This document shows, piece by piece, positions 31,405-41,874 of a DNA stretch of 63,219 nucleotides. This DNA is from Clostridia bacterium. Lineage in GTDB: Bacteria > Bacillota > Peptococcia > DRI-13 > UBA5745. The position numbers were made by a program, and so were the translations under genes. Location: assembly GCA_018436095.1 (NCBI GenBank), contig JAHDMJ010000028.1:1-63219 (forward strand), read 5' to 3'. The notes beneath the pieces were generated by a model, which saw only the letters and a list, made by a program, of their open reading frames with translations, had not been told where the DNA came from and ran no database searches. The number at the start of each line of letters is the position of its first letter. Position 1 is the first letter of the stretch.

Positions 31405-33276
31405 TCAGAATGATGTCGGCAAAAACGAAGCTATGCCTTTATCGGCATCCCAACCCACGGTAACGCCCAGAATCTGCTCGCCCAATACCCTGAAGGGCAA
31501 AAAGGTTCTGCCTTCGCTGATGGCAGGCGCCGCGGCAATCTCCAAAGCTTGACCATCAACCGTCATCACTTTGCTGTCAATAGTTAACAGAACCGACTTT
31601 CCGCCGTTGTCGATTTTTACTGTGCCAGCCTGGCCATCCCATTCTACGCTGCCTTCAGGAAGTCCCAAAGCTCTGGCTACATAACTGACAGGCACCATGG
31701 TGTAATCCTCCTTGATGTATGGGGCTACGTCCATCGTTACCTTTTCGTCGCCAATCTTAAGCTCCGTGCTGCCGATGGTCAGTTCCACCGCAATCATCCC
31801 TGCCGGTTTCGCCACCACCTCAGCAATAGCTACAGCCGCTTCATGGCTCAAGCCGCTGCCGCCGGCGGTAAGAAAAACAGGGCCGCTATAGCTTTCATCA
31901 GCAGTTATATAAAAAGTCAGCTCTACTTTAGCTTTAAGGTCTTTTTTTACGACGGCATTGCGGATAGTCAAGCCGTTTGCCGCCAACGTCCAGGAACCGC
32001 TGTTTTCCGTGTTTAGCCCATAGGCATTCTCATCAATGCGCCTGATCAACGTATCCTGAGGCAGGTCAACAGCAAAATTTGTGGTGGTAACTCTCACTGC
32101 TTTGGCAGTAATTCCCTCCGGTAAAGTAAAGGTAGTCCTGCCGTCGGCCCACCATCTGCCCGCCGCCGACTCCTCCAAGGTAACTTTTAAGGTCTTCAGG
32201 CTTTCGCTGACGGCGTCGGCAGGCTCATAGCCGGCAATCAGCTTAGGCAAAGCCTCATCAGCCGCCGTGACGGTATAATCCACTTTGATCCGGTTAGCCA
32301 CCCTTACCGTTTCCCGCTCCATGTTGCAGCCCGATAAAGTCACGGCTACCGGACCGTAAGCCGTATTATCTGCCGCAGCTGACAGTTGAAGATTCTTCAC
32401 GATAAGAGCCCGAGGCTCTCCTGAACCATCTTTATTCATCGCAATATCGAGTTTTATTGACGCCTGGTTTTCCTTAGCATTCGGCCCTTCAACAGCATAA
32501 TACCTGTCCTTGATAGCCAAACCGCTGGTCTTGCGTCCCGCCAATTGTATCTGGTCAATATTAATCCAGCTATAGCCTGCGGGGGCCACAAGCGCCAGTG
32601 TGCCGTCTACTAAAGCGCCGGGCTCCAGCTCTTGGATGACAATATCTTCAAGGACTACGGTCTGAGAAAAGCTCTTGCTCTCTCCCGGCTTCACCTGAGT
32701 AATAATTGAACCGCCTAAGCCGCCGCTGGCAAAGGTATAAGCGCCGCCGGAAGAAAGACCGCCGGAGGCCGGATCGTAAATTTCAACGGAAGCCGGGCTG
32801 CCTGTCACCTCAACCAGCATAGGGATATAGAGAGCCTCGTAGCTGGAAACTACAGTATAGGGATCGAGAGTAATAACGGCTACGTTATCCCTTCCCCCCG
32901 GGCTCATTACATAGCTCAAACCCTGGGGCCATTGCCCGCCGGTGAGGTAACCTTCGTTGGAATCCACCGGTATGAATTCACCGTCTTTATTGACATCGCC
33001 ATAATCGTCGATGCCCATCCGGCTATAAGCTTCAAAATCCCAATAGGCATTGGTAAGCCGCAGTTCAAAAGAAATGCCTTGCAGCCTGGTGCCGCTTTGG
33101 GGCTGGATTACCAGCACCGGGATTTTTTCCGGGTCGGCTAAGATCGCAATCGAATATCCTGCCTTGGCTCCTGCGAGGTTAATGATGGAATTGCTGGTCT
33201 CGGCAAACAAAAGGCCTGCCGGCAGGACAGATATCAGAAACAGGACGGTTAAAAGAAAAGACAGTTTTCTTTTCAT
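31405..33276 (-). CDS. Secreted stalk-domain (copper amine oxidase N-like) protein
   Basis: The product, about 623 residues, has a Sec signal at residues 1-26 (KRKLSFLLTVLFLISVLPAG). A long beta-rich ectodomain follows, and the C-terminal stalk domain matches the copper-amine-oxidase N-terminal-like family (ITMDV-type strand, YTMVPVSYVARALGLPEGSV, KVMTVDGQALEIAAAPAISE, RTFLPFRVLGEQILG). Such domains are surface modules, not oxidases. It is 35 bp after the prepilin peptidase gene and in line with the Tad operon, so it may be the surface or adhesive component. It is preceded by AAGGAGG. Confidence 0.8.
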   Translation of the reverse strand: MKRKLSFLLTVLFLISVLPAGLLFAETSNSIINLAGAKAGYSIAILADPEKIPVLVIQPQSGTRLQGISFELRLTNAYWDFEAYSRMGIDDYGDVNKDGEFIPVDSNEGYLTGGQWPQGLSYVMSPGGRDNVAVITLDPYTVVSSYEALYIPMLVEVTGSPASVEIYDPASGGLSSGGAYTFASGGLGGSIITQVKPGESKSFSQTVVLEDIVIQELEPGALVDGTLALVAPAGYSWINIDQIQLAGRKTSGLAIKDRYYAVEGPNAKENQASIKLDIAMNKDGSGEPRALIVKNLQLSAAADNTAYGPVAVTLSGCNMERETVRVANRIKVDYTVTAADEALPKLIAGYEPADAVSESLKTLKVTLEESAAGRWWADGRTTFTLPEGITAKAVRVTTTNFAVDLPQDTLIRRIDENAYGLNTENSGSWTLAANGLTIRNAVVKKDLKAKVELTFYITADESYSGPVFLTAGGSGLSHEAAVAIAEVVAKPAGMIAVELTIGSTELKIGDEKVTMDVAPYIKEDYTMVPVSYVARALGLPEGSVEWDGQAGTVKIDNGGKSVLLTIDSKVMTVDGQALEIAAAPAISEGRTFLPFRVLGEQILGVTVGWDADKGIASFLPTSF

Positions 33277-33311
33277 CAATAATTACCTCCTTAAACCTTT
33301 TCTCCATCATA

Positions 33312-33743
33312 CTATATCACAAAACCCTGCCAGAGAAAATAGGCCGCCGCCATGAAAGGAGCCAGGGGCAAAGCCCTTGGCCTTTTTTTGCCTAAGAAAA
33401 GCAAAACCACAGACGCCGCCAATAGCACCCCGCAATACATCCCTAAAAAATCCAGCCAATGCTTCCAACCTAGAAAAAAACCAATAAGGGCGGCCAGCTT
33501 CACGTCACCAGCTCCCAGACAACGAAACCGGTAAGGAATAAAATGAATGAAAAAGGCCAGCATTCCTGCCCCCAAACAGCCGGGCAGCAGGGCAGCTTCT
33601 CCTTCAACGAACAAAACCGCCGCCAGGATCGCAAAACAGCCCAAACCGCCTAAGATCAAAAAGTTAGGAATCCGCCGGCTTTTCAAGTCGGTGCCGGCGG
33701 CGCCTAACAGCAATACACCTAAAATTATCTTCCCCGCGAACAT
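33312..33743 (-). CDS. Prepilin peptidase, A24 family (TadV/CpaA type)
   Basis: This 143-residue membrane aspartic protease cleaves prepilins. The first catalytic Asp lies in AAGTDLKSRRIPN (Asp19) and the second in RCLGAGDVKLAALIGFFLG. Short single-domain A24 enzymes without the methylase part are typical of Tad systems. It lies between the SAF-domain gene and the stalk-domain gene on the same strand, and the GGAGAGG site is good. Confidence 0.88.
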   Translation of the reverse strand: MFAGKIILGVLLLGAAGTDLKSRRIPNFLILGGLGCFAILAAVLFVEGEAALLPGCLGAGMLAFFIHFIPYRFRCLGAGDVKLAALIGFFLGWKHWLDFLGMYCGVLLAASVVLLFLGKKRPRALPLAPFMAAAYFLWQGFVI

Positions 33744-33788
33744 TACCTCTCCTCATTCCAGCGTTGCTTATTGCCTCTTAAGCGCATC

Positions 33789-34499
33789 TTATCGTCCGTT
33801 AGCCTGGCCTGACCGGGGCGAAAAATAGATCCTGCCTTCTTCGTTATAGCGAATCAAGGCCTTAATCCGCTCCTCGTCTTCTTTATCCACCATCAGGGTA
33901 ATAACTGCCGGCAATAGGTCGTTGCTGTAGCCGTCTCCTGCCGGGCCTCCGGCAAGAGCCAGCCCGCCGGCATTCTTTTTATCGATTATCAGCAGATCAG
34001 CCAACATGGGGTCTTCTTCCGGCCCGATGATTTGCGAAGGCTGGACCTCCTCATAGCCGTTTTTAGCCGGTATATAAACCACAGCGTCAGCCCTCACCCC
34101 CGGCCAAAGCCAGTCGCCGCCGCTGCGCACCAGGTCTGTGGCCACAGCAATCAGACACATATCCTCCCGGTTGTCAAACTCCCAACGCCAGCCACCGCCG
34201 GCACTATCAGCAGAAGTCAGCCGCCGCAGCCGTAAAACATCCCCCGCCCCAACACCCAATTCGCCGATATACCAGGGCCCCCGGGCCATAAACTCGCCGA
34301 TATCCGTAATATAGTCTTTATCCAAGCCAAAAACCGGCTTTTCCATCATAGTCAGGTTGTCGGCATTTAAAGGCGTTCCCGGCAGCAGATCCCTTTTGGC
34401 GGCAACCACCCTTTGGGTGGCTCCGGCTTGTTTTAGGTAAGCCTGGTTTAAGGTAAAGGTGATGCCGAATACCACTATAAAACTAAAGCTGATAACCAA
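33789..34499 (-). CDS. CpaB/RcpC-like SAF-domain pilus assembly protein
   Basis: The product has one N-terminal membrane segment and then an SAF-type beta-clip (RVVAAKRDLLPGTPLNADNL), as in CpaB/RcpC of Tad systems. VRADAVVYIPAKNG and PAVITLMVDKEDEERIKALI fit that family. TTG 34499 has no ribosome site and starts inside the hydrophobic segment. The frame stays open to 34550 and adds a basic N-terminus (KGKRGLIGFIIKG). AGAGGGG precedes a CTG codon at 34544 by nine bases, so the true start may be that non-standard codon. Confidence 0.75.
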   Translation of the reverse strand: MVISFSFIVVFGITFTLNQAYLKQAGATQRVVAAKRDLLPGTPLNADNLTMMEKPVFGLDKDYITDIGEFMARGPWYIGELGVGAGDVLRLRRLTSADSAGGGWRWEFDNREDMCLIAVATDLVRSGGDWLWPGVRADAVVYIPAKNGYEEVQPSQIIGPEEDPMLADLLIIDKKNAGGLALAGGPAGDGYSNDLLPAVITLMVDKEDEERIKALIRYNEEGRIYFSPRSGQANGR

Positions 34500-34561
34500 G
34501 CCTTTAATAATAAAGCCGATGAGCCCCCGTTTTCCTTTCGCCAGCTTTAATCACCCCTCTT

Positions 34562-34999
34562 TTATTTATATTGCCCCTGATAAGCCAGGCTTTTATTGAC
34601 CGTAATCTCTCTGCCTTCTTGGCCGATTAAACCGGCCAGAAGAAAAGGTATGCTCACCTTGGCCTGTCCGGCCGCTCCAATCCGCTCATTAGCCCCCGTT
34701 ATCTCCATTTGGAAAGAAAGGCTTTGCTCCAGAGGACCGGCCATGTTTTGCCAAAGAATGTAGCGGGCCCAGTTCTTCGCTTGTTCCTGCTGCGCAAGCT
34801 GCCTTCCCCAAATCAGGTCCGCCTCCGCTACACTTTTGACGATTGCCCCGTCCAGGGCCAACTCAAGGCTCTGCCCCAGGCGATGCCTGACTAGCCAGTA
34901 AGAGGCGGAATCCGTCACCAAACAAACAAGCAGAAACATTATCCAAAGCCAAAAAAACGCTCTCACCTTTTCTACCGCCTTTCTTATTTGTCGGTTCAT
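34562..34999 (-). CDS. TadE/TadG-like pseudopilin
   Basis: The 145-residue protein has a short basic cytoplasmic end (NRQIRKAVEKVRAFF), one membrane helix (about residues 15-33) and a small extracellular domain. This is the layout of TadE-like minor pilins, but sequence match to the family is weak and the call rests largely on position. It begins 15 bp after the preceding TadE-like gene. Confidence 0.6.
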   Translation of the reverse strand: MNRQIRKAVEKVRAFFWLWIMFLLVCLVTDSASYWLVRHRLGQSLELALDGAIVKSVAEADLIWGRQLAQQEQAKNWARYILWQNMAGPLEQSLSFQMEITGANERIGAAGQAKVSIPFLLAGLIGQEGREITVNKSLAYQGQYK

Positions 35000-35014
35000 A
35001 TAGCTGTCAGCCGG

Positions 35015-35425
35015 CTATCCCCTTCTTATATAAGTATGGGCCAGGCCCTGAAGCCGCAGGCTAAAAGGTACGCTGAGCTCTTTGCCGAAAGGCCTCAGGC
35101 TGCGGACGGGATAGCGGCCCCAGGCCTTTAGCTCCATCAGTTCCCCTCTTTGCACAGTCTTAGGCGTACCCTCCAGGCGGATATCGAAATCCATCAGGTT
35201 TAAAGATACAAGCATTTCCCGAAACTTCCTTTCCATATGGCCGTCCAGTCCGTTTTCCCCTTTCATCATTTCCATGACCTCACCGCAGGCGCCGTACAAT
35301 TTCCAGGCGGACATGCTATAGGCGGCTATCTCTACTGCTAAAAACAGAATAATGGCCAGAACGAACATGACGTAAAAACCGCTGATCAGCCCTTCTCCTG
35401 ACCGGCTGCCCCATAACCCCCTCAT
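35015..35425 (-). CDS. TadE-like (DUF4320-type) pseudopilin
   Basis: The protein is 136 residues from ATG 35425, chosen because a strong GGGGGGAGGG site precedes it; the frame continues upstream without one. The N-terminus SRSGEGLISGFYVMFVLAII has the short basic end and E-containing hydrophobic helix of type IVb pilin-like proteins. A globular domain with RLEGTPKTVQRGELMELKAW follows. It lies between the pilin-like gene and another TadE-like gene. Confidence 0.7.
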   Translation of the reverse strand: MRGLWGSRSGEGLISGFYVMFVLAIILFLAVEIAAYSMSAWKLYGACGEVMEMMKGENGLDGHMERKFREMLVSLNLMDFDIRLEGTPKTVQRGELMELKAWGRYPVRSLRPFGKELSVPFSLRLQGLAHTYIRRG

Positions 35426-35453
35426 ACACCCTCCCCCCTTCCTTTGCCTTCCT

Positions 35454-35693
35454 TTAAGAGCCGGGATTAAATACACGGTCAAGATGAGAAAAGATATTAT
35501 TGACGTAGCTTGTAAGCTTGCCGTCTACAATGCCCTTGATCAACACTAAAAGCAAAGCCATAATGGCCATCCAGCCTAAAGCAGAAACCAAGTCGCCTTT
35601 TTCCTCCCGCAGAAAACCGGCGGCCTTATTTTGCAGAACCGCCAGTCTGCCTCCCCAGTAAACACCCCTATCCTTATACCATTTCATCATCAT
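35454..35693 (-). CDS. Flp-like small pilin candidate
   Basis: The 79-residue protein has a basic N-terminal region, then EEKGDLVSALGWMAIMALLL, then a short tail (YVNNIFSHLDRVFN). A hydrophobic helix following a charged E/G-rich segment is the mark of Flp/Tad major pilins, and processing would be after the Gly in EEKG. Three consecutive ATGs (35693, 35690, 35687) follow AAAGGAGG. I am unsure whether it is the main pilin. Confidence 0.65.
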   Translation of the reverse strand: MMMKWYKDRGVYWGGRLAVLQNKAAGFLREEKGDLVSALGWMAIMALLLVLIKGIVDGKLTSYVNNIFSHLDRVFNPGS

Positions 35694-35700
35694 CTTCCTC

Positions 35701-35760
35701 CTTTGGCCTGCTCCGATTAGGCGAATAATCCTCTGGCCTGCTCCGATTAGGCGAATAATC
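35701..35760. repeat. 30-bp tandem duplication at the tadC 3' end
   Basis: Positions 35701-35730 and 35731-35760 match in 29 of 30 bases (GCTCCGATTAGGCGAATAAT core). The duplicated piece contains the last codons and stop of the TadC-like gene, so a second copy of the gene's end sits between it and the pilin gene. Confidence 0.9.
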
Positions 35761-36643
35761 CTCCCACCTGCCCCAATATCTCCCAGCCTTTTAAAAGCAA
35801 TGCCGCCACAGCCAACGCAAATAAAAGCCCATACAACTGAACTATTTTTTCCGGTTTATTACGTATCAGAGACTCCGCAGCCTCCTGCCGTAATGCCGTC
35901 AATTCCCCCTCTATGCTGCCGAAATAGGCTTCAGCAGCTCCATAACCGCTTTCCACCGCCAGCATCAGAGCCGAAGCCAGCTTCTGTACCGGCGGCAAAT
36001 CAAAGCTGATGGCAAACAACCGGAAGGCGCCTGCGGACCCAATGGTTTGAATATCATGGATCAATTGGCCTAGGGCCTGAGCCATAGCAGGCCCGCCGGC
36101 GGCCTGAGCCTGCCGGAGAGCTGATAAGTAATCTCTGCCGCCGGCAAAGCAGATTCGCAGCCTGTCCATAACCTCAGGTATATCCCTTACTAATTCCTGT
36201 TGCCAGCGGTTGTATTTGCGCTCTAAGCTCTTTAGCTCCTGCCGGAAAAGCAGGGCAAAAACCGCCGGATAGGCTAAGGCTTGCCGCCAGTCCTGCCATA
36301 GTAAGGGCAGCGCCAGAGCCGGCAAAGCCAACATTAAACTTTTCAGCAACAAAACAGCCAGTTTTTCCCGGGCATCAGCTTTTTCTCCCATTAGCTCAAG
36401 CTTTCTGTCCAGTTGCTGCCAATAGGATTGTTCCAGCCGGATCAGTCCCGCGCCTTTATCCATGATACTGATTACCGGTTTCAGGCGGCGGTTTTCTCCC
36501 GCCTGCCCCTCATGCCATCCCTGGCTTCTTGCAGCAAAACCGGCCAGCTTATACGGCTCTCTCTTCTTTTGCCACCAGTCGAAAATCTCAGCAAACAGCC
36601 ATGATGCGTATATAGCCCAAACCAGCGGCGGCAAACAAATCAT
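35747..36643 (-). CDS. TadC-like inner-membrane platform protein
   Basis: This 298-residue protein is related to the type II secretion F domain: ELVRDIPEVMDRLRICFAGG in the cytoplasmic helical part, hydrophobic segments around residues 105-140, and a last membrane helix near 270-290. TadC pairs with TadB to form the pilus platform. ATG 36643 has its AAGGGGG some 20 bases away. An in-frame ATT at 36652 is better spaced, so the start is uncertain. A 30-bp duplication covers the stop. Confidence 0.8.
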   Translation of the reverse strand: MICLPPLVWAIYASWLFAEIFDWWQKKREPYKLAGFAARSQGWHEGQAGENRRLKPVISIMDKGAGLIRLEQSYWQQLDRKLELMGEKADAREKLAVLLLKSLMLALPALALPLLWQDWRQALAYPAVFALLFRQELKSLERKYNRWQQELVRDIPEVMDRLRICFAGGRDYLSALRQAQAAGGPAMAQALGQLIHDIQTIGSAGAFRLFAISFDLPPVQKLASALMLAVESGYGAAEAYFGSIEGELTALRQEAAESLIRNKPEKIVQLYGLLFALAVAALLLKGWEILGQVGGLFA

Positions 36644-36666
36644 CGGATTAATACCAATTTCCCCCT

Positions 36667-37548
36667 TTAAAGCTCTTCAACATTTAAGGACAGATATTCC
36701 TGGCCTTTAACTGCTACATAAAGGCTGACAGCCACATAAGCAAAGATCAGCAGCTTTCCCGGCAGCGAATAGAGATAGAGGTTTTTTTGTCCCGTATCCA
36801 GCATGGATAAGACCACCGGAAAGCTCCAAGACATTAATAAAGCGGCATATAACTGTCTTTTGCGGCTGGCAGCTTTTTGAGCCACCAGAAGCACTGCCTG
36901 CAAATCGGCCTCCAAGCTTTGAACAGACTTGTCCAGAGCCCGTAAAGCCGCAGGAGTCCAGCCATCTTTATTAGCTTGGATCAAGGTCTCGGCCACATGA
37001 TCAAATTTTTTAAGCTTTATGCTATTTTGCCATAAAACCACAGCCTCCCGGACGCTGCTGCCTAAACGCAGCTCCTCCAAAACCTGTCTGAGGATTTTTG
37101 TCCGCTCACCCCGTCCATCGCTTTCAATCACCATTTCAATAGCCCTGCTGAGACTGCCCTGATCCGGCAGGCGGGCCAAAAGCTGGCGCAGAGAATCCGT
37201 CAGGGCCATTAAGGTTTCCAACCGCTGCCGCCTTTTGCGATTGTTGATAATCAAGGTTGGCAGAATCAGCGTCAGCAGCCATCCCAAACCGAAAAGCAGC
37301 AGATTGCCGGTGATAAGATACAGGCTGCAAGCAGCAGACAAGCTGAAAAGCCAGACCATTTTTGTTTCCCTGCCACCCCAGCTCACTCCCGCCGCATAGG
37401 CCTGGCTATGCAGGCGTTTTTCCTCCCTTGCCCAATAGCTTTCCTCCTTTTTACGGCCCCGCTCTTTCTGATTGCCGGTAATTAAAAGCAGAAATGATAG
37501 CGTCAGCCAGCCGGTAAACAGTGCCGCATTAATAAAAGATCTTGCCAT
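36667..37548 (-). CDS. TadB-like inner-membrane platform protein
   Basis: This is a roughly 293-residue T2SF-domain protein. Membrane segments lie near residues 5-22 and 60-90 and at the C-terminus. The cytoplasmic core includes ALTDSLRQLLARLPDQGSLS and ELRLGSSVREAVVLW. ATG 37548 is used because AAGGAG lies eight bases upstream; the open frame runs further upstream into tadA. It is 38 bp after the TadA-like ATPase gene, in the usual TadA-B-C order. Confidence 0.85.
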   Translation of the reverse strand: MARSFINAALFTGWLTLSFLLLITGNQKERGRKKEESYWAREEKRLHSQAYAAGVSWGGRETKMVWLFSLSAACSLYLITGNLLLFGLGWLLTLILPTLIINNRKRRQRLETLMALTDSLRQLLARLPDQGSLSRAIEMVIESDGRGERTKILRQVLEELRLGSSVREAVVLWQNSIKLKKFDHVAETLIQANKDGWTPAALRALDKSVQSLEADLQAVLLVAQKAASRKRQLYAALLMSWSFPVVLSMLDTGQKNLYLYSLPGKLLIFAYVAVSLYVAVKGQEYLSLNVEEL

Positions 37549-37586
37549 TCTACGGCTCCTTCTTATTCCTTTTAAACTCTTGCCCT

Positions 37587-38984
37587 TTATTTTGCCGGCA
37601 AAAGCCAGCGGTCGATATGGTCCTGAGGCACCAAAGCCTGACGAAGCTTGTCTGCTAAGGCTTGAGAAATCCCGTTCAGCCGCCGGTGCCTGCCGGATAC
37701 TTTGCCGTCTGCACCCAATCCGGTCTGACAAAATTGAAAGAGCTTCCGGCAAACAGGTTTTTTGGCGCCTTCATAGCCTACCAGCTCTGCCACCTCAGTG
37801 ATCACCCGGCTTCTGCCCATTTTTTGCTGAAAAAGAATTAAATCCACGGTATCCGCCAATTGAGCGGCAATAACCTCGTCATTGTAACCGTCTCCCGCCA
37901 GTTGCACGATACGCACCGCCGCATTGGCAGCGGAACTGGCATGGATGGTGAAATACGTAATATGCCCCGTATTCATACTCTCATGGGCCTGGCGGCAGGC
38001 CTGGGCGTCCCGAACCTCTCCAATCATCACTTTGACGGGCCGCATCCGTAAAGACACTTTAGTCAGCCGGGCAATATCGAATCGCTTTTCCTTGTTTTCA
38101 TGGTCTTTCGTCTGCAAGGCTACGATATTGTGGTAGTTTTGATAGTTGCTGCGCCGCCGCAGCATCATTTCCGGGCTGTCTTCAATGGTAATGATTCTGG
38201 TATCGGCGGGAAAATAAAAGGGTATGGCCATCAGAGTGGTGGTTTTTCCCGAATTGGTAGCCCCGGCAATAATACCGTTACACCAAGGCAGCACCTGAGT
38301 AAAAAACTCATCCATTTCTTCACTGATGCAACCGCCGGCCACTAATTGGGCTGATGTAATGGTTTCCTCAGCAAATTTTCGTATGGAAGCGCAAGTGCCT
38401 TCCGTGGCAATTCCTCCTCTGCCGGAGCCTAAAACGGCACAGATTCTGAACTTCTCAAAGAGACTGTCAATATGAGGCTCATTAGCCGTCAGCGCCTTGC
38501 CGTCAGCCATCAGCATTTTATTGATGATCACCTCTAAATGGGCTTCATCTTTAAATCCCATCTCCGGATGGTATTCCTCCACCCCCTCCTTTTCCAAATA
38601 AACATCTTTATAGTTGTTAATATCAATATTGGTCACTGCCGGATCATCCAGAGCTTTTTGGATAGGACCATAGTATAAAATCTCTTCCTGCAGCCGGATA
38701 TATAGCTGCTTCTGCTCCATCCCCGGGGCAGTTAAGCCCGTTTGGGCCAGATAATGCAGAATCTGCTTTTTCATCATTTCCCTGGTTTTAGGATCAATGA
38801 CTGCGGTAGCCAGGCCTGCACTGTGGTTTTCCCGCAGATAATCTCTCACTTGCCTTACTGCTGCCGAAAGATCAATAGCCCTGCCCTGGTCTTGGCTTTG
38901 CCCTTCTCCTTGGCCATATAGCTGCCCCGCTTCCGCCTCACCCGCAGCATAGATATATTCCAAAGGATCAAAAAAATTTTTCAT
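37587..38984 (-). CDS. TadA/CpaF-type secretion ATPase
   Basis: This 465-residue type II/IV secretion ATPase powers pilus assembly. Walker A is GATNSGKTTT (241-250) and the Asp-box region is IITIEDSPEM. Walker B is KVMIGEVRDAQACRQAHESM and the His box is TGHITYFTIHA. An N-terminal domain of about 100 residues precedes the core. It lies 9 bp after the MinD-like gene. The chain identifies the region as a Tad/Flp locus. Confidence 0.92.
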   Translation of the reverse strand: MKNFFDPLEYIYAAGEAEAGQLYGQGEGQSQDQGRAIDLSAAVRQVRDYLRENHSAGLATAVIDPKTREMMKKQILHYLAQTGLTAPGMEQKQLYIRLQEEILYYGPIQKALDDPAVTNIDINNYKDVYLEKEGVEEYHPEMGFKDEAHLEVIINKMLMADGKALTANEPHIDSLFEKFRICAVLGSGRGGIATEGTCASIRKFAEETITSAQLVAGGCISEEMDEFFTQVLPWCNGIIAGATNSGKTTTLMAIPFYFPADTRIITIEDSPEMMLRRRSNYQNYHNIVALQTKDHENKEKRFDIARLTKVSLRMRPVKVMIGEVRDAQACRQAHESMNTGHITYFTIHASSAANAAVRIVQLAGDGYNDEVIAAQLADTVDLILFQQKMGRSRVITEVAELVGYEGAKKPVCRKLFQFCQTGLGADGKVSGRHRRLNGISQALADKLRQALVPQDHIDRWLLPAK

Positions 38985-38993
38985 GACCGGCCC

Positions 38994-39911
38994 CTACAAA
39001 TAAACCAATCCCGCTTCTCCCCCATCATCGTTCTTTACTTGGGCCGGCCAATAATCCTGCCTTAGCTCCCAGGAGCTTGCCTCTTCATTAAGCAAAGCTC
39101 CCCAGGGAACTTCCCGCTCAAAATTAAAGAAGTGTTGGCCGGCTGAATCCGAATTTTCTGTCACTGCTTCTTTGTTGCTTAGGCCTCCGTCATCCTCTTC
39201 ACTCTGGATTTCTTCGTCATCAAAATTAAATGCCTGCTCTAAAGTCATTTTGATTTTACGGCTATCCCAAGAGGTCACTTTAATACCTTTTAAGCTTTCA
39301 TTTTCTTTGCCTTTGGCGTATACGATCCTTTCGATGGCTTTGATATCTCCTACCGCTGCCAAAATAAATTTTTCGGGACTATGCTTATATACCTGAATCA
39401 AACGGCGGATAGAGGCTAAGGCATAGGCGGCTTCCGTAGGTTTGGCCAAAGGAATTACCACTTGATCCGCCGCTTTCAGGGAGAAAAAGGTCATGGGGTT
39501 GACTAGTTGGCCCTGACAGTCCAGAATCAGGTGCCGGCAGCCTCTGGCCCAGGCCAGCTCCTGGAGAGCCGTAACAAAATCCATCAATGCGCTGAAGCTT
39601 ACTCTGGTTACAACGGGGCAATCCGGGGTGGCAAATACACTGGCAGGCAAAAGGGCAAGCTTTTGGTTCACTTGATGAACCATATCCCAGGTCAGGCAGT
39701 TTTTTTGGTCAAAGCGCATAAGAGCAGACTCTGTATTGCGGCTGCGGTCCATAATACCGGAGACAAAACCTAAGCGGGGAATGCCCAGGCAGGGCAGCTC
39801 GGCAAGCAAAGCCTTTCTCTGCTCCGCCAGCAATTCCGCCGTACCGAAAGACAACTCCGCGGCATCCACCCCTGTACAGGACCAAAAAACGGTTGTGTTT
39901 TTTCTCATCAT
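38994..39911 (-). CDS. MinD/CpaE-like protein with degenerate P-loop
   Basis: I read this 305-residue protein as a distant ParA/MinD relative, the place normally held by CpaE/TadZ. The N-terminal strand FWSCTGVDAAELSFGTAELL occupies the P-loop position but lacks the GKT lysine pattern. CRHLILDCQGQLVNPMTFFS resembles the Walker B strand, followed by DQVVIPLAKPTEAAYAL. The C-terminal 70 residues are acidic and appear disordered. AGGAGG precedes two ATGs. It is probably a pilus-localising protein without ATPase activity. Confidence 0.6.
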   Translation of the reverse strand: MMRKNTTVFWSCTGVDAAELSFGTAELLAEQRKALLAELPCLGIPRLGFVSGIMDRSRNTESALMRFDQKNCLTWDMVHQVNQKLALLPASVFATPDCPVVTRVSFSALMDFVTALQELAWARGCRHLILDCQGQLVNPMTFFSLKAADQVVIPLAKPTEAAYALASIRRLIQVYKHSPEKFILAAVGDIKAIERIVYAKGKENESLKGIKVTSWDSRKIKMTLEQAFNFDDEEIQSEEDDGGLSNKEAVTENSDSAGQHFFNFEREVPWGALLNEEASSWELRQDYWPAQVKNDDGGEAGLVYL

Positions 39912-39950
39912 AAAATCTCCTCCTAATCTTTGGTTTTTTATCGCTGAACT

Positions 39951-41729
39951 TCACTGTATGCTTTGCCATTGTATGTTCTGCCATAAATCGGATAAGCACT
40001 GACAGCTTTCCCCCGAGATCCCCTCATATTTGCCGCTTAAAGCAGTCAGGCTGATGAAATCCTTTTTAATTACCGGGGGTATGATGACATATTGCTCTAA
40101 GGCCAAATTTTTCATTTGTTTATTAATCCTCTCTCCTCCCCAGCTGCCGTCAAAAACCGGCAAGCAGCGGCTTTGCCACTTTCCTTGCAAATAAGGGGCC
40201 TCATTGAAGGAAGGAGTCCAGGGAGAAAAAGCAATGATTTTCCTGCGGCAAACAAGGCTATCTTTCCAACAAAGAGAAGCCCTATCTCCAAAGCCTAAAT
40301 AAAAAACGTAAGTGTATTGCTCTTCCATGATAGCCCAATGAACGAGAGAGGCGAAAAATCCGTCCCAAAAAGGGTAGAGTTTCTTTTCTATCTGGCCTTG
40401 GGGCAAAATATCCAAAAGGGCATAATCAGGGTGGCGGCTGCGAAAGCAATAGTTTTGCCATGGCCCCCTAACCCCTGAAGCAAAATCCTGCAATGCTTCT
40501 CTTAAACTTTTTTCCGGCTGGTACAGGCCTAAAGCCTTCTCCAACCGGGAATCGCCGCCCGGCAACTCCACAAGCAAAGTTTTGCTGCCGCTGCCGGCTA
40601 AATGAGCAGCCATCAAAAAAGCTAAGGCGTAAGTCAACAGGCAGTCCTCCTCGGAAAAGAAAAGGGCAGTAGAGCCGGTCCGAGGCACTTCCGGTGCTTG
40701 CTGTTTTTTGCTTTTAATCGGCAGCTTGAAGTTTTTATAAGTCAGCCATTGCTTTGGGAATGTTGCTTTTAGCAAGGGTTCCGGAGTTAATGCTACAGTA
40801 GCCGCCGCCGGGGGCGGGGGCTCAACCGGAGCCGGGGCTGGGGCCGGGGCTGGGGCTGGGGCTGGGGCTGGGGCCGGGGCTGGGGCTGGGGCCGAAATCA
40901 GGACCGGTATCGGTGGTGGAGGCGGAAATGGACCAGCCGCTAAAGAAGAAAGCTCTGCCGCCAGAACTGGCACTGAATCTGACATCGAGGCTGATGCTGG
41001 GGCTGGTACTGAATCTGGAGCCCGTGCCGACATCGGTGCTGGGCCTGGAAAACTTGCCGGGCCTGGCATTGAAGCAGGTGCCGGTACCGCAACTGCAATT
41101 GGAGCCGGTTTCTTCCATAAACTCAGCTTTTCCTTTCTCGTAATCTCTATCCTATTTTCCACCCAGGCTTTCAACAGCCGGGAACCATCCCTCAGCTTGA
41201 TCTGCCAAAGCCGCCGCCCCTCCTCCGGCTCCGGAATGGCGGGAGGCGGTAAAGTGTCCAAATAAGCTTCTAACTGGCGGAAGCTCCGCTTCGTGGACAA
41301 TACTTCCTCAAAAAGCCGGCTATCCATCCCGGACAAAAACCAGAAATCGTAAAAGCCCTGGCTCATTAAGTCGATCAGAAGATTTTGGCCCGTACTTTTT
41401 TCCTCAGGCATTAAAAGCTTTATCCCGGCATCTCCTGCCACAGACCGCACTTTGATTAAGGATTGCAGCAGAAGCGCTTCCGGCTCTCTCTGCAGCAGCG
41501 ATACATTGCGGTAATAATTGAGGCCGTTGACAACCAATATACGTTGGCTGGTATTCTGAACGGAAGATTCTTCTGGCTTACGCTTAGAATAATGCGCAAT
41601 AGCCTCCTGAAAATCTCGGAAAATACCGGCGGCTGTATACTGGCCCGGCAATAAGGAAAGGAGAGGAGAATCACTGGAGAAAAAAATAAAGTCCACCGGT
41701 ATTATCCGTTTTACAAGATCGGGTATCAC
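39951..41729 (-). CDS. CpaE-like fusion with Pro-Ala hinge
   Basis: This is the first large gene of the Tad operon (592 residues). An N-terminal alpha/beta domain (FIFFSSDSPLLSLLPGQYTA, RILVVNGLNYYRN, FYDFWFLSGMD) is joined by a long Pro/Ala-rich linker (about residues 215-315). The C-terminal MinD-like domain has FFSEEDCLLTYALAFLMAAH in the P-loop place, then TLLVELPGGDSRLEKALGL. The ATP-binding lysine is absent. It starts with GTG, overlapping the stop of a 23-codon upstream ORF (GTGA). Confidence 0.6.
   Translation of the reverse strand: MIPDLVKRIIPVDFIFFSSDSPLLSLLPGQYTAAGIFRDFQEAIAHYSKRKPEESSVQNTSQRILVVNGLNYYRNVSLLQREPEALLLQSLIKVRSVAGDAGIKLLMPEEKSTGQNLLIDLMSQGFYDFWFLSGMDSRLFEEVLSTKRSFRQLEAYLDTLPPPAIPEPEEGRRLWQIKLRDGSRLLKAWVENRIEITRKEKLSLWKKPAPIAVAVPAPASMPGPASFPGPAPMSARAPDSVPAPASASMSDSVPVLAAELSSLAAGPFPPPPPIPVLISAPAPAPAPAPAPAPAPAPAPAPVEPPPPAAATVALTPEPLLKATFPKQWLTYKNFKLPIKSKKQQAPEVPRTGSTALFFSEEDCLLTYALAFLMAAHLAGSGSKTLLVELPGGDSRLEKALGLYQPEKSLREALQDFASGVRGPWQNYCFRSRHPDYALLDILPQGQIEKKLYPFWDGFFASLVHWAIMEEQYTYVFYLGFGDRASLCWKDSLVCRRKIIAFSPWTPSFNEAPYLQGKWQSRCLPVFDGSWGGERINKQMKNLALEQYVIIPPVIKKDFISLTALSGKYEGISGESCQCLSDLWQNIQWQSIQ
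40831..40893 (+). repeat. GGGGCT/GGGGCC hexanucleotide tract
   Basis: Ten consecutive GGGG runs are separated by CT or CC on the plus strand, which is the template strand of the CpaE-like gene. They encode part of the Pro-Ala hinge. The spacing fits an intramolecular G-quadruplex. Confidence 0.9.
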
Positions 41730-41797
41730 TGCTGCATGATGCTCACCACTTTCTTCAGATCTGACATGGTCAGTATCTGCACCAATATTGTTCTCAT
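41726..41797 (-). CDS. 23-codon leader ORF before the Tad operon
   Basis: An ATG at 41797 opens 23 codons (peptide contains ILVQILTMSDLKKVVSIMQQ). They end in a TGA that overlaps the GTG start of the CpaE-like gene as GTGA. GAAGGTGAT lies about 13 bases before the ATG. The overlap suggests translational coupling; it could also be a frameshifted remnant of a longer N-terminus. Confidence 0.4.
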   Translation of the reverse strand: MRTILVQILTMSDLKKVVSIMQQ

Positions 41798-41846
41798 GGC
41801 AAATGATAAGATCACCTTCTTACGATATCTTTATCCTTTTTTTACC

Positions 41847-41874
41847 ATTTTATCATAAAATTGTATTTCGTCAA
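41847..41874 (-). promoter_or_regulatory. Promoter of the Tad operon
   Basis: On the minus strand TTGACG (41874-41869) and TAAAAT (41852-41847) are spaced by 16 bp within AT-rich DNA. They lie 50 bp before the leader ORF and about 118 bp before the CpaE-like start. Confidence 0.6.

Follow-up and report, generated by a model that had tools for sequence, protein, structure and literature searches.

P-loop-less MinD-fold proteins in a clostridial Tad-like operon: a possible nucleotide-independent, TadZ-derived scaffold for the motor CpaF

TadZ-type positioning proteins are normally ATP-using switches. In a Tad-like operon of a Clostridia bacterium, the two proteins with a predicted MinD/ParA fold, here called MinDa and MinDb, both lack the nucleotide-binding P-loop, and the same absence extends to their relatives. 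We propose, with a probability of roughly 0.55, that the two derive from TadZ and serve, without need of nucleotide, as a scaffold for the motor CpaF, a mechanism inferred from published descriptions of Caulobacter and of TadZ together with the anatomy of the two proteins. The operon lies in a draft genome of 3.7 Mb, on contig C28, and "the window" denotes the whole 63,219-nucleotide stretch that was analysed.

Results

The operon comprises eleven co-directional genes on the minus strand (41729-31405) in the order minDa, minDb, cpaF, tadB, tadC, Flp-like, DUF4320, tadG-like, SAF/CpaB-like, tadV and a gene for a secreted PF07833 protein (Table 1). Position 41874, the far end of the examined interval, is the start of a promoter-like site and not of a gene, and the 15 promoter-like sites of the region are only slightly above the 10.8 expected. 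The closest named cpaF records belong to uncultured Clostridia/Peptococcaceae assemblies, the nearest being Clostridia bacterium SM1-B15.1 with a 91% identical CpaF. Tad/Flp (type IVc) features are present, namely a CpaF/TadA with an intact Walker A, the two GspF-like platform proteins TadB and TadC, and a short TadV-type prepilin peptidase. The tad gene order, which the initial annotation had marked for comparison, was found again in relatives. The Flp pilin residues E+5 and Y+6 are absent in 18 of 18 aligned Flp-like proteins, and the cleavage-site Gly is kept. Flp-like proteins without Y+6 are described for Gram-positive tad loci (PMC3244431). Those loci that are without classical prepilins (the C. 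kluyveri and D. hafniense group) resemble the present operon in their reduced tad gene set and in an unusual or missing Flp pilin, and P-loop loss goes unmentioned in the accessible portion of that account (PMC3244431). Judged from its genes, the operon would encode a monoderm, DUF4320-type Tad pilus system.

Table 1. Features of the Tad-like operon and its 5' flank (positions in the window)
Feature	Position	Strand	Basis and remarks
Promoter-like site	41847..41874	-	Consensus match only: TTGACG-16 nt-TAAAAT, TG before second hexamer; 5' of operon
MinDa	39951..41729	-	592 aa, P-loop-less, putatively TadZ-derived: N-terminal alpha/beta domain, Pro/Ala linker, MinD-like domain; GTG start uncertain
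MinDa N-terminal alpha/beta domain	41253..41726	-	Model residues 1-158; occupies the place that the atypical receiver has in TadZ
MinDa Pro/Ala-rich low-confidence linker	40680..41252	-	From the model; 6-bp minisatellite inside
MinDa degenerate P-loop position	40629..40664	-	Alignment of relatives
MinDb	38994..39911	-	305 aa, P-loop-less, predicted MinD/ParA fold, TadZ slot directly upstream of cpaF
MinDb degenerate P-loop	39858..39884	-	WSCTGVDAA versus WGSPGSGKT in P-loop-intact relatives
CpaF/TadA motor ATPase	37587..38984	-	Walker A intact (GATNSGKTT); T2SSE PF00437 6.2e-30
TadB-like platform protein	36667..37602	-	Weak T2SSF 0.0012, below cut-off; true start probably near 37545 by relatives' length
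TadC-like platform protein	35747..36643	-	Position, relatives, and models built from window and relatives; no Pfam or NCBIfam match
Flp-like small pilin candidate	35454..35693	-	EEKG/DLVSALGWMAI; no family match of its own, named by position and relatives
DUF4320 (PF14208) pseudopilin/TadE-like protein	35015..35482	-	Family match
TadG-like membrane protein	34562..34999	-	PF13400 0.023, below cut-off
CpaB/RcpC-like SAF-domain protein	33789..34550	-	SAF 5e-4, just under cut-off; TIGR03177 5e-4; listed ORF start 34499, homology upstream to about 34550
TadV/CpaA prepilin peptidase	33312..33743	-	Peptidase_A24 1.5e-14, 143 aa
Secreted protein with C-terminal PF07833 "stalk" domain	31405..33279	-	PF07833 2e-38

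Related tad loci vary in content. Two loci of the MinDb group (L043 and L044, in G017 and G010) carry MinDb, CpaF, DUF4320 and TadG without TadB or TadC, and L044 then continues into a second, receiver-bearing tad set. In G001 (L031:14477-16291), the gene after minDa, minDb and cpaF is not tadB but one that runs in the opposite direction, which could reflect genome reduction or assembly. The window's genome also holds a second tad locus (L057, G000:C4:199000-218500) with two CpaF genes. Elsewhere, the CpaF proteins of L174, L175 and L176 are identical even though their genomes (G113, G132, G216) represent three families, and DUF4320 is present in 3-5 copies in some genomes (G129, G245, G004); together, these two observations suggest that P-loop-intact DUF4320-type tad loci have recently been mobile.

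That both MinD-like proteins lack a P-loop had been claimed from the window, and the claim holds across relatives. The loop position reads WSCTGVDAAELS in MinDb, as against WGSPGSGKTTVS in P-loop-intact relatives that occupy the same gene slot, and FFSEEDCLLTYA in MinDa. MinDb is present in 23 of 60 genomes of relatives, the window's own included, and a phylum-wide sample of 398 genomes gave 15 matches, 13 strong and two weak, with the loop scored in every strong match fetched. The P-loop is kept in 0 of 27 MinDb, that is, in none of the 26 rows scored by alignment nor in L041, which was read directly from DNA. Likewise, it is kept in 0 of 19 readable MinDa rows in an in-register alignment from which the partial or broken copies of L032 and L038 were dropped; outside that alignment, the broken L038 copy also lacks the loop. 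In MinDb, the Gly preceding the lost Lys has become D or N in 26 of 26 and the Lys position itself is T, A, G or N, while one Gly of the loop remains in 25 of 26. Most MinDa rows have an acidic loop (S-E-[DE]-D), and the three loop-Gly positions of MinDa hold Gly in 0, 0 and 1 of 19. A loose G-x-GK pattern matches three MinDa elsewhere, twice at the turn before strand 2 and once far downstream. A GGGGKT-like string in the MinDa of L030 and L033 sits at the helix 1/strand 2 turn and not at the P-loop position.

Two sets of proteins served for comparison. CpaE-like proteins, found with the CpaE of the genome's second tad locus, occur in 47 of 249 phylum genomes and 18 of 40 relatives; 47 of 48 loci were scored, some of them general ParA/MinD proteins that do not adjoin cpaF. 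Their Walker-A lysine position holds K in 41, R in three and A, T or V once each, the A and V cases being the second-locus CpaE of the window species (TGRTGATS) and of its sister species G004, respectively. DUF4320 loci were found in 39 of 398 genomes, and 20 regions were fetched, 16 with a TadZ-like gene directly upstream of cpaF and four (L177, L180, L184, L187) without a recognised TadZ adjoining CpaF. Of these 16, 15 carry K at the lysine position and one carries R. The two weak MinDb matches, in G245 and G292, proved to be TadZ proteins that occupy this slot and have an intact WGSPGSGKTT, so that the lysine is kept in 17 of 18. Such P-loop-intact DUF4320-type TadZ proteins (e.g., L080, L170, L182) are like MinDb in being a single MinD domain encoded directly upstream of cpaF and followed by TadB, TadC and DUF4320, whereas none of the MinDb or MinDa proteins has the lysine. 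Set against both comparison counts, the loop loss is exceptional and, within the sample, confined to one group.

The history of this group was approached through CpaF. In a midpoint-rooted tree of 47 CpaF rows, in which some outside rows are long-branched and the contig-end-cut L042 and L045 were dropped, a single branch (100/100 support) separates the 25 rows with a P-loop-less MinDb from the others. The branch was recovered in 200 of 200 bootstrap trees, and equal clustering arose in 0 of 500 shuffles; hence, one loss is enough. In the window, and likewise in each of the 26 other loci that carry it, MinDb has the TadZ/CpaE slot directly upstream of cpaF, and its profile matches that of P-loop-intact DUF4320-type TadZ at 98.0% (hhalign, E 1.5e-13). 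Profile comparison also identifies MinDa and MinDb as paralogues (97.3%, E 1.7e-11). The receiver-bearing CpaE group is matched by part of MinDa at 92.2%, whereas the match of MinDa to the DUF4320-type TadZ profile is 17.8% over the whole length and 21.1% over the MinD domain. By profile, MinDa is thus nearer to the receiver-bearing CpaE group, which makes the duplication scenario tentative.

AlphaFold2 models of MinDb and MinDa, made from 7-sequence alignments, are modest overall (mean pLDDT 59.7 and 57.4, respectively) with confident cores. The best structural match of MinDb is FleN (5j1j_B; VIA Z 14.9, 165 residues, rmsd 2.5) and that of the MinDa C-terminal domain is MinD (3r9j_B; VIA Z 17.3, 218 residues, rmsd 3.4). 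A MinD/ParA fold is thus predicted for both proteins, in answer to the fold check proposed with the initial annotation. FleN/FlhG and MinD have intact deviant Walker A motifs. The whole MinDa model matches E. rectale TadZ (PDB 3fkq; VIA Z 14.9, 312 residues over model residues 7-587) with an rmsd of 24.6, a value that a match of both domains in a different mutual placement would be expected to give. The models also bear out the suggested fusion of MinDa to an N-terminal alpha/beta domain, in a predicted two-domain layout like that of TadZ; the MinDa N-domain profiles score 1.2% and 2.6% against CpaE N-domains, so receiver identity is not confirmed by profile. MinDb is modelled as a MinD domain plus a disordered tail, with no N-terminal receiver-like domain. 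Scans of both proteins against Pfam, NCBIfam and PHROGs returned nothing above cut-off, and annotation by a single profile therefore fails on them. When solved structures were searched by sequence, MinDb gave only weak matches to Soj (E 0.0075), and no hit of MinDa was convincing.

The long Pro-Ala hinge described for MinDa is real in the window, where the linker spans about 190 residues of the model, but the long form is specific to the nearest species; the linker is much shorter in distant relatives. Its Pro-Ala repeat is encoded by a GC-rich 6-bp minisatellite of 11.5 copies (40826-40894). Several MinDa proteins (L039-L049) terminate in a possible membrane anchor, a basic segment of helix-like character (e.g., ERLKDYKKTLFSKVL), which the window copy does not have. 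The disordered tail of MinDb ends in a terminal leucine (VYL, IRL, IKL, YPL) in 15 of 23 proteins, all 15 belonging to families f1 and f3-f6, and may be a docking peptide.

Both genes are under constraint. Between the window species and G004, dN/dS is 0.10 for minDb, 0.18 for minDa and 0.05 for cpaF, and the remaining genes of the operon, tadB excepted, have 0.07-0.15, values that place MinDa and MinDb under purifying selection. In MinDb, the invariant and near-invariant residues crowd the old nucleotide face (W10, G14, E38-L47 with ELPCLGIPRL, and Q133-F143). Three old-pocket segments covering 37 of 202 columns hold 17 of the 25 columns conserved at ≥90% (hypergeometric 3e-9), a value for which the segments had been widened once the data were known; if they are restricted to the narrow motifs, nine of the 25 fall in 24 of 202 columns (p 6e-4). 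MinDa is present in 21 of the 22 genomes of the window's order that have MinDb, and minDa lies directly before minDb in most genomes of the order. Among the 21, MinDa is partial or broken in three (L032, L034 and L038, the last as two reading frames), and it is a distant orphan gene in G010 and G017 (L135 and L136 among the orphan loci) and in G015. It is absent from G023 and from five MinDb-bearing genomes outside the order (f22/f64).

The final gene of the operon has a different pattern of retention. Residues 509-614 of the stalk protein match PF07833. Among 17 relatives with a readable 3' flank, a full-length stalk protein stands at the operon end in two (G004 and G002; L030, L033), a shorter and different PF07833 protein in six (L040, L041, L043, L044, L076, L078), and no PF07833 protein in nine, some of whose stretches end soon after; in G008 (L035), a phosphoglycerate mutase gene takes its place. 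The window genome contains 30 PF07833 matches, 28 over cut-off outright and one more when joined with its in-frame neighbours. The gene is thus largely not conserved with the tad genes, and the idea of a dedicated surface tip or adhesin, put forward in the initial annotation, is weak and was set aside given 2 of 17 loci and about 30 matches in the genome. A PF07833 gene also follows the second tad locus of the same genome, and an association of PF07833 proteins with tad loci is possible.

Discussion

Our analysis points to a TadZ-like pair that has parted with its nucleotide-binding loop. MinDa and MinDb are like TadZ/CpaE in their predicted MinD fold, in the slot upstream of cpaF and, for MinDa, in the two-domain layout, and they lack the deviant Walker A P-loop of that family. 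According to PMC13170226, E. rectale TadZ dimerizes by means of ATP bound at its deviant Walker A, and the Caulobacter in situ model places six CpaE dimers around the CpaF hexamer. MinDa and MinDb differ from E. rectale TadZ in having no such loop, in usually occurring as a pair of paralogues and, for MinDb, in the absence of a receiver domain. TadZ is further portrayed (PMC6668835) as a hub at the cell pole: it brings in other Tad components, and its ATPase activity is low. We suggest that an ancestral TadZ lost its whole nucleotide-binding loop once, and that in the window's lineage TadZ would now consist of two paralogues, MinDa with a receiver-like and a MinD domain and MinDb with a MinD domain and a disordered tail. 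These would form a stable nucleotide-independent dimer, probably a heterodimer, in which the old ATP/dimer face may serve as a fixed protein interface by which MinDa and MinDb bind one another and CpaF. The dimer would dock onto the CpaF hexamer at the membrane and mark the assembly site, and ATP would then be used by CpaF only. The changed localisation mechanism that the initial annotation had suggested is a fair reading.

A heterodimer cannot be general, since G023 and five genomes from outside the order have MinDb but no MinDa. A more detailed version, which we hold tentatively and at somewhat less than even odds, is that the ATP-switched TadZ dimer has been replaced by a constitutive nucleotide-free MinD-fold scaffold, with a MinDa-MinDb pseudo-ATPase heterodimer in the order and a MinDb homodimer elsewhere, and with ELPCLGIPRL and CQGQL, on the former ATP sandwich face, as a permanent docking surface for CpaF or a partner. 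The same genomes without MinDa favour a division of labour in which the TadZ role falls to MinDb, working free of nucleotide, and MinDa acts as a regulator (a receiver-like input module, for instance) and not as a structural partner. MinDa can also sit away from the tad genes, and the N-terminal domain is found in MinDa only; however, the retention of MinDa in 21 of 22 genomes and its usual place directly before minDb speak against this arrangement, which we consider somewhat unlikely.

The main rival to a nucleotide-free scaffold is that MinDa and MinDb bind nucleotide non-canonically and act as ordinary TadZ switches. It has precedents: E. rectale TadZ has lost both lysines and is an active ATPase, with a lysine of the adjacent helix compensating (PMC10482377), and Liberibacter CpaE has KGGVGSS (PMC8513845). 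Since E. rectale TadZ is active despite its lysine loss, motif loss alone is no proof of lost binding. In MinDb, one loop Gly persists in nearly all proteins and basic positions such as residues 46, 103, 170 and 181 are well kept. Unlike in the precedents, however, the glycine loop itself is gone, with D or N for the Gly before the lysine throughout the aligned MinDb and an acidic replacement in MinDa, and the conservation analysis found no invariant lysine near the MinDb loop. We regard non-canonical binding as unlikely. That both proteins are decaying remnants is far less probable still, at the level of a marginal chance. Loss of the catalytic motif, the MinDa of L038 split into two frames and a G001 locus with no tadB directly after cpaF would fit decay, but the dN/dS values of 0.10-0.18 and the open frames and invariant motifs kept in at least eight families largely refute it, and gene decay was rejected on these grounds. 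Overall, a nucleotide-independent scaffold built from MinDa and MinDb is the reading that we prefer.

Loss of the Walker-A lysine in TadZ/CpaE is already known, and what appears to be new is that two paralogues kept side by side have both lost the loop in its entirety; in the open-access library searched, we found no earlier report of a P-loop-less TadZ or of DUF4320. Known lysine-less TadZ proteins can still use ATP. On the question of whether TadZ needs nucleotide binding for pilus placement and assembly, the present lineage offers a natural experiment: the CpaF tree calls for one loss, and the corresponding slot holds a P-loop-intact protein in relatives as close as the sister species G004 (L171). 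The lineage would also contribute a documented MinD-fold pseudo-ATPase pair to a superfamily whose members are mostly accounted for by dimer cycles that ATP drives, and it suggests that in these bacteria the pilus may be positioned by a fixed scaffold and not by an ATP-driven switch.
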